Shown piece after piece: positions 11,450 through 23,277 of a stretch of 39,806 nucleotides of DNA. Under the pieces are notes generated by a model. That model had not been told where the DNA came from and did no database searches. It was given only the letters and a program-made list of their open reading frames with translations. The stretch's first letter is position 1. The number at the start of each line of letters is the position of its first letter. The stretch is from Patescibacteria group bacterium (lineage in GTDB: Bacteria > Patescibacteriota > Minisyncoccia > Phycocordibacterales > Phycocordibacteraceae), in assembly GCA_013815345.1 (NCBI GenBank), contig JACDGK010000005.1, forward strand, positions 27,374-67,179. Direction: 5' to 3'. The translations under genes and the position numbers were made by a program.

Positions 11450-11541
11450 ATTCCTTTAGTATACCAAACTAAAAAAACCCGTGCGATTTTGGGTATAGTC
11501 ACGAAACGAAGAAGGACTCAAACGATTTTAGGGGCTCTCGG

Positions 11542-11661
11542 TTAGTCACAAAGCGAGGAAAGACAGAGATGATTTTGGGGACTCACGGAGCGCGACGGCG
11601 CGAGTGGGAGCAAATTTTTAGCAAAAAATTATGCGTATCCTAAAATCGTCTCTGTCTTTCC
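11542..11661 (+). repeat. Element copy A (tag 11542-11557; arms 11557-11579 / 11639-11661; core 11582-11636)
   Basis: Core CTCACGGAGCGCGACGGCGCGAGTGGGAGCAAATTTTTAGCAAAAAATTATGCGT; arms complementary at 21/23, both exceptions G-T on the + strand; right arm ends 3 nt before the ftsZ stop complement. Confidence 0.9.
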
Positions 11662-11664
11662 GAG

Positions 11665-12903
11665 CTACTTTTTATGTCGTCGTAGAAAACTTGGAATCGC
11701 GCCCCACGTCTCATCTTCTTCATCAACCGAAGGCGGCTTCATGATTTCATTATCGATACGACGCTGCGGTTGCGCGGTAACGATTGGTTCAACACGCTCA
11801 TTTTTTGTTGCTGGTACAGGAGTTTCTTCAGCCACATCTACGGGAGCTTCTTCACGGCCGCCGAATACCTTACTGCGGACCTCCTGCTGTTCTTTTGGCG
11901 GCATAGCAAAAAGGGAACGTTCGCTGCCCATACTCTCTAAAACATTGTCAGGAAATCCCGTCGCAATAACGATAATACGGATCTGACCTTTCTTAAGCTT
12001 TTCATCACGCATGATACCGAAGATGACCTTAGCATTTTTATCAACTGATTCATTAATAACCTTAGCGGCGTCTTGCACCTCGAGGATTCCGAGGTCATCA
12101 GACCCCGCAACGACGAAGAGAATTCCTTTCGCACCATTTATCGAAACATCGAGAAGTGGGGAATTAACGGCTTGGGCAGCTGCATCGCGTGCGCGGTTAT
12201 CACCATCAGCAACGCCGATACCCATGAGCGCTGGACCGGCATTCTCCATGATAGTCTTGATGTCATTAAAGTCAGTGTTGATCTCACCGGGAGTGGTGAT
12301 GATGTCGGAAACGCCTTCAACTGCCTGACGGAGTATTTCATCCGCAAGCGCGAAGGCGTTCTTTGCGGACGTCTGTGCCTCGACAATAGAAAGAAGTTTA
12401 TCGTTTGGAATAATGAGAAATGCATCAACTTCTTTTTTAAGTTCGGCGAGTCCTCTTTCTGCAATCTCGCTGCGCTGCGCACCTTCGAAAGCAAATGGTT
12501 TGGTGACGACGGCAATCGTAAGAGCGCCAAGCTCTTTGGAAATTTTAGCGACGGTCGGGGCGCCGCCGGTTCCGGTGCCGCCACCCATACCGCAGGTGAT
12601 GAAAACCATATCGGAGCCCTGAAGCGCCTCCTGGATCTCCTGACGAGTCTCTTCAGCAGCGCGACGACCGAGATCAGGATTCATTCCCGCACCAAGTCCG
12701 CGGGTGAGATTCTTGCCGATGTGGATTTTTCGTTTGGCAAGGGATCGGTGGAGGTCCTGAGCGTCAGTATTTACGGCAATAAATTCAACCCCTTTGACTT
12801 TGGAGTCTATCATGTGGTTTATGGCATTGCAGCCAGAACCACCTACTCCGACAACCCTGATACGGGCGAATGTTTCGACTTCGGGGGTAACGCGCTTAGA
12901 CAT
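11665..12903 (-). CDS. ftsZ: Cell division protein FtsZ
   Basis: IRVVGVGGSGCNAINHMI, GMGGGTGTGGAP; C-terminal peptide IPSFLRR. Confidence 0.97.
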   Translation of the reverse strand: MSKRVTPEVETFARIRVVGVGGSGCNAINHMIDSKVKGVEFIAVNTDAQDLHRSLAKRKIHIGKNLTRGLGAGMNPDLGRRAAEETRQEIQEALQGSDMVFITCGMGGGTGTGGAPTVAKISKELGALTIAVVTKPFAFEGAQRSEIAERGLAELKKEVDAFLIIPNDKLLSIVEAQTSAKNAFALADEILRQAVEGVSDIITTPGEINTDFNDIKTIMENAGPALMGIGVADGDNRARDAAAQAVNSPLLDVSINGAKGILFVVAGSDDLGILEVQDAAKVINESVDKNAKVIFGIMRDEKLKKGQIRIIVIATGFPDNVLESMGSERSLFAMPPKEQQEVRSKVFGGREEAPVDVAEETPVPATKNERVEPIVTAQPQRRIDNEIMKPPSVDEEDETWGAIPSFLRRHKK

Positions 12904-16659: not shown

Positions 16660-16706
16660 GCCGGTATTGTATGCTTAGTTTTTGGCACGTCAACAGTGAC
16701 GCTCAC

Positions 16707-16827
16707 CGCGCAGATAAAACGATTTTGTGGCACGCATAATTTTCTGCTGAAAATTTGCTCCACTCCCGCCGTCGCAGTGCGTGAGGCCTCAAAATCGTTT
16801 TATCTGCGCGTCTCGCTTAGTGACTAA
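16707..16827 (-). repeat. Element copy B (arms 16707-16727 / 16790-16810; core 16732-16785; tag 16812-16827)
   Basis: Minus-strand core CTCACGCACTGCGACGGCGGGAGTGGAGCAAATTTTCAGCAGAAAATTATGCGT; 21-bp perfect arms CGCGCAGATAAAACGATTTTG / CAAAATCGTTTTATCTGCGCG; tag TTAGTCACTAAGCGAG. Confidence 0.92.
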
Positions 16828-16872
16828 AATTTATTTATGTGATTTATTCACGCTGCTGATATACTGGAAGGA

Positions 16873-23125: not shown

Positions 23126-23144
23126 TTAACGTATCGGGCGGGAG

Positions 23145-23246
23145 AGACGCAATATGCATAAATAGCGCCTCACGCAGCGCGTCGGCGCGAGTGGAGCAAA
23201 TTTTCAGCAGAAAATTATGCGTGCGCTATTTATGCATATTGCGTCT
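23145..23246 (+). repeat. Element copy C (arms 23145-23168 / 23223-23246; core 23169-23222)
   Basis: 24-bp perfect arms AGACGCAATATGCATAAATAGCGC / GCGCTATTTATGCATATTGCGTCT around CTCACGCAGCGCGTCGGCGCGAGTGGAGCAAATTTTCAGCAGAAAATTATGCGT. Confidence 0.95.
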
Positions 23247-23277
23247 ATGCCCGCTGTTGCATACACATGGTATCTTT

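Follow-up and report, generated by a model that had tools for sequence, protein, structure and literature searches.

An apparently undescribed family of RPE-like palindromic elements in Parcubacteria, with a structured core and site-specific outer arms

To our knowledge, the palindromic elements that lie in frame within genes of Rickettsia are a long-known curiosity with no settled mechanism. These Rickettsia palindromic elements (RPEs) are dispersed palindromes that occur in intergenic regions and also, in frame and without stop codons, in unrelated genes (PMC10969869). Here we describe a family of ~100-base palindromic elements in the tiny-genome Parcubacteria (Paceibacteria), beginning from one copy, copy B, in the divergent lepB/pth intergenic region of a 39,806-nucleotide stretch (the window) of a Patescibacteria group bacterium (GCA_013815345.1, contig JACDGK010000005.1, positions 27,374–67,179). 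The genome, G000, comprises 27 contigs and 838,886 bases. The elements, about 100–120 bp long, are best read as a new RPE-like family with a structured core and site-specific outer arms, where the likeness to RPEs is one of description. The family is apparently undescribed.

Like RPEs, which measure about 100–150 bp, the elements are palindromic, dispersed and intergenic, and are also inserted in frame and free of stops in unrelated essential genes. They differ from RPEs in host group, in the two-hairpin core at the tip and in the site-specific outer arms. Repetitive extragenic palindromic (REP) sequences, bacterial interspersed mosaic elements (BIMEs) and REP doublets forming hairpins (REPINs) are similarly small structured repeats that spread within genomes, often after genes and sometimes in opposite pairs (PMC3116915, PMC2817692). 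However, REPs and REPINs are extragenic and 20–40 bp in length, whereas the present elements are three to five times longer, are also intragenic, vary in their arms from copy to copy and have no firm link to a Y1 transposase. Miniature inverted-repeat transposable elements (MITEs) are likewise small and non-coding with inverted-repeat ends. Unlike the ends of MITEs, which are conserved between copies, the outer arms here are site-specific (except in G038-type copies), and in place of target duplications, no flanking direct repeat above chance-like length was found at arm-bearing copies. The coding palindromes of Nematomorpha mitochondria are also perfect inverted repeats in protein genes with arms of conserved coding sequence, but, going by their description, they do not derive from a single dispersed element that carries a common core (PMC6649704).

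Copy B spans positions 16707–16810 on the minus strand. The sequence-only reading had proposed 21-bp perfect arms extended inward past one mismatch by GGC/GCC, and both features are confirmed: positions 16707–16727 are complementary to 16790–16810, and beyond the mismatch (T/T on the plus strand, A/A on the minus strand) pairing reaches 25 bp at 96%. The lepB-side arm (3′ arm in element orientation) thus occupies 16707–16731 and the pth-side arm (5′ arm) 16786–16810, each consisting of 21 perfectly paired bases and four more with one mismatch; 0.01 chance matches to such an arm (≤3 mismatches) are expected in the window. The arms are separated by a 54-nt core (16732–16785) of two hairpins, H1 (16761–16783), with a GNA/GA internal loop and a GNNG apical loop, and H2 (16734–16758; GCAAATTTTC-AGCA-GAAAATTaTGC), with one bulged A. 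Two further copies lie on the plus strand of the window, copy A (11552–11666), directly after the stop codon of ftsZ, itself on the minus strand, and copy C (23140–23251), 14 nt past the gyrA stop codon. A middle portion of ~58 nt containing H1 and H2 is common to the three, while the long arms around it are different in each. The two hairpins form a three-way junction that caps a long near-perfect stem, and z-scores for whole-element folds range from −7 to −9. Along the stem, an inner part (~8–14 bp) is common to close copies and an outer part (~12–20 bp) is specific to the site.

Pairing in the stems is kept by changes on both sides. In a covariance model (R1) of 51 copies, all 27 consensus pairs include changes on both sides. 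Among nine coding-slot copies of one layout (eight in tsaD, one in fmt), 27 of 48 pairs have changed on both sides with pairing kept, the outer arm included, and two orthologous fmt copies carry GGGCAG/CTGCCC and GGGATG/CATCCC, respectively.

Six copies were detected in G000 by BLAST and 7–8 by covariance model R1, which found 40 of 59 relatives positive, with up to about 50 copies per genome. In a phylum-wide draw, 32 of 287 genomes were positive, mostly from the same order with a few from other families. Among the 118 stretches listed with an exact match to a core 21-mer, at one genome per species, nearly all fell in Parcubacteria or unnamed Patescibacteria metagenome-assembled genomes; the named groups among the matches listed were Nomura-, Kaiser-, Zambryski-, Taylor-, Adler-, Colwell-, Harrison-, Wildermuth-, Nealson- and Uhrbacteria. 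The sole match listed outside Parcubacteria was a chance-like one in Brachyspira, and Rickettsia did not occur among the matches listed. The exact core 21-mer was absent from IMG/VR, so viral carriage is not supported. Rfam yielded no family match (the top score over copy B was 27.4 bits, with a gathering threshold of 114), and no description of such elements in Parcubacteria or the candidate phyla radiation was found in the open-access literature. Palindromes in general are abundant in G000, with 63 scoring at least 16 compared with none in a genome resampled by a first-order Markov model.

Copies favour the ends of genes. A stop codon of an open reading frame (ORF) of at least 100 amino acids lies within 30 nt of the palindrome in 50 of 76 arm-bearing copies, compared with 9.7% of random intervals, and in 11 of the 76 an ORF of 120 amino acids or more runs right across the copy. 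In G000, copies follow ftsZ (A), gyrA (C), RNase J, dnaJ and rplE, the exception being copy B amid divergent genes. In relatives, in-frame, stop-free copies occur in the essential genes tsaD, fmt, prmC, recJ and dnaE as well as in xerD-like and dusB genes, with the names of these host genes assigned by motif and not by family search. The element thereby accounts for unusual linkers in the TsaD, Fmt, PrmC and DnaE proteins of Parcubacteria, a point of relevance to annotation and structure work. The linkers of tsaD and prmC are insertion hot spots, in which most relatives carry a palindromic insert, of this or another core type, and a minority are plain. In the RNase J slot, an element is present in only 2 of about 50 relatives. 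All slot counts are minimum values, because long concatenated DNA queries lost matches (one such search scored only 3 windows per genome).

Several further inserts were seen in these slots. In this genus the prmC linker repeatedly contains perfect palindromes, some of them core-less with a loop of 2–3 nt (L395, L405, L415, L420, L421, L423), and G008 prmC holds two elements in tandem. The fmt slot of L277, L281 and L286 is occupied by another in-frame insert type, encoding peptides like PSAFSTSPLxRGRLGGG. In the tsaD slot, the core of L300 is opposite in orientation to that of L297 and L302 within similar arms, as if flipped or replaced.

A separate family in Parcubacteria with site-specific, near-perfectly paired stems opens the origin of such stems to direct tests, as orthologous slots can be traced through dozens of species and close genomes differ by single copies. 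Copies nearly identical in core and inner arm (TTTTGGAGC) are unrelated in their outer arms, which therefore do not simply move along with the core. In prmC of G008, G059 and G007, the host flank forms part of the stem: the left arm is made up of host codons (EQLM, EEML), present at that position in relatives with or without the insert, and these codons recur in inverted form as the right arm. Outer arms can thus be copied from the host flank. Between G008 and G059, most changes in the prmC arms are paired.

Taken together, we consider it probable that copy B belongs to an RPE-like mobile palindromic family with a structured core, site-specific self-complementary arms and an outer stem copied by foldback. 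The core would spread selfishly, much as RPEs do, with its structure as the feature that is recognised, and the outer stem would be made, or kept perfect, by inverted copying of one flank onto the other, for which the simplest route would be foldback template switching at the hairpin as the DNA is replicated. Copying from the host is a likely origin of outer arms, but not a general one. Several observations weigh against this reading. At two element loci that they have in common, the genomes G014 and G028 are about 98% identical, and they differ by presence or absence of the element at two other sites (flank identity 84–91%); at both of the latter, the empty allele contains neither arm, whereas simple copying of the local flank predicts otherwise. 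A G038-type subfamily repeats the same arms at several sites, which indicates that arms can travel. No enzyme is linked to the element, with Y1 transposase genes only weakly associated. Further, mobility is inferred and not observed, gain and loss being indistinguishable at both G014/G028 sites. Inverted duplication of the target flank at insertion is accordingly not claimed as a general rule; prmC supports it, and the two empty alleles, lacking the arms, do not. More tentatively, the element may carry only the structured tip and the inner stem and build the remaining stem from the host by foldback copying, essential codons included, keeping that stem perfect so that the fold persists and not the sequence; we regard this version as possible but doubtful.

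The main rival explanation is that the core inserts into the loop of pre-existing long hairpins, chiefly two-way terminators after stop codons, so that the outer arms are old host stems. G000 is rich in long perfect hairpins, the RNase J slot holds an ordinary terminator hairpin in most relatives, and the outer arm of the RNase J copy in G033, with an A-tract/T-tract and a GC stem, is terminator-like and suggests an old stem. The core-less palindromes of the prmC slot and a small imperfect hairpin noted by inspection at one empty site are in keeping with this. However, most outer arms in G000 are not terminator-like, the long arms are missing from the G014/G028 empty alleles, and the prmC arms of G008, G059 and G007 pair conserved coding sequence with an inverted copy of it, which together leave the rival unlikely. 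The strong bias of copies towards the 30 nt that follow a stop codon, along with the strong covariation, would also be expected if the copies were functional RNA structures at mRNA 3′ ends (terminators, stabilisers or RNase III sites) and the covariation reflected ordinary selection on RNA structure. Yet copies are also found in coding regions, in both orientations and, in the case of B, amid divergent promoters, the RNase J slot is rarely occupied, and around copy B there is no T-tract or terminator-like site, unlike the GC stem and T run of an intrinsic terminator. We consider this explanation quite improbable.

Mobilisation of a REP/REPIN-like element by a REP-associated tyrosine transposase (RAYT; Y1, of the HUH type) recognising a bulged hairpin would account for the bulged base in H2 and for the adjacent, oppositely oriented copies of some genomes, and Y1 genes are common in the genus, with one in G000. 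However, 19 of 25 genomes with the element and 18 of 34 without it have a Y1 match, G033, G039, G040 and G052 carry element copies and no Y1 match, and copies also occur within genes. Such a relation to REP/REPIN elements is very unlikely, and the case for the Y1 transposase as the mobiliser is weak. The motifs of group II intron domains V/VI and of integron attC sites were not seen by eye, and a likeness to either was dropped.

Copy B is probably tolerated, and not needed, at a position upstream of both the lepB and pth promoters. A predicted lepB promoter (TTGACG-16-TACAAT; 16666–16693, minus strand) separates the element from the lepB ATG, with copy B about 14 nt upstream of the predicted −35 box. 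The TACAAT box occurs at a similar place in the relatives G020, G001, G006 and G106, and no element was found in G020, G001 or G106. On the other side, a predicted pth −10 box (TATACT; 16860–16865, plus strand) lies 7 nt before the pth ATG, with similar boxes at that position in relatives. Because promoter-like boxes lie between copy B and each gene, the predicted starts leave the element out of both transcripts. The suggestion that it might form part of the lepB 5′ untranslated region is thus not supported, although copy B may act on the two promoters from upstream. The slot is filled at the same place and in the same orientation in G000, in G008 (near-perfect arms of different sequence) and in G006 (decayed), and none was found in the remaining six relatives for which the position of pth was established.

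One base outside the pth-side arm of copy B lies a 16-nt tag, TTAGTCACTAAGCGAG (16812–16827, minus strand), shared with copy A only, where a 15/16 twin, TTAGTCACAAAGCGAG (11542–11557, plus strand), touches the arm. Between A and B the inner arm is partly alignable (GATTTTG) and the outer arm hardly, though the tag beyond it is conserved. From this pair the sequence-only reading had proposed an asymmetric outer tag and the core as joint traits of the family; the core is indeed conserved and the tag is real on A and B, but it is not a family feature. Nor is the tag scattered away from the core: at 0–2 mismatches, G000 holds only two sites, at copies A and B, both linked to the core, and the 12 sites at ≤3 mismatches are at chance level (16 for a reversed-tag control). 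The tag is present on A, on B and on a truncated half-copy adjoining A (11494–11541, plus strand), in which tag-like sequence, a left arm and the start of the core are recognisable by direct reading, while 5–6 other copies in the genome lack it. Since it occurs at only two genome sites, the tag was rejected as a family mark and is attributed to a shared flank of A and B.

Other palindromes of similar style were observed. A second family in G000 has a short loop like GAAAGCACTTAG within 24–28-bp perfect arms that differ at each site (C15:88026–88093, C19:66128–66193, C18:34603–34662, C19:64570–64637). A third core type (GACTTGGCCTAGCGGCCCGG) lies in long variable arms at C19:77575–77657 of G000 and in frame in the prmC slots of L410, L418 and L422. 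Also, a related type without long inverted arms occurs at transfer RNA (tRNA) 3′ ends and elsewhere (L064, L133, L028, L037, L378, L391); it is flanked by direct repeats of 17–30 bp, which at tRNAs reproduce the 3′ portion of the tRNA from the T-loop onwards. Oppositely oriented pairs of adjacent copies, separated by tens of bases in a BIME-like arrangement, were seen at G435:C4:55018/55146, G351:C37:34957/35079 and G379:C65:1222/1380.
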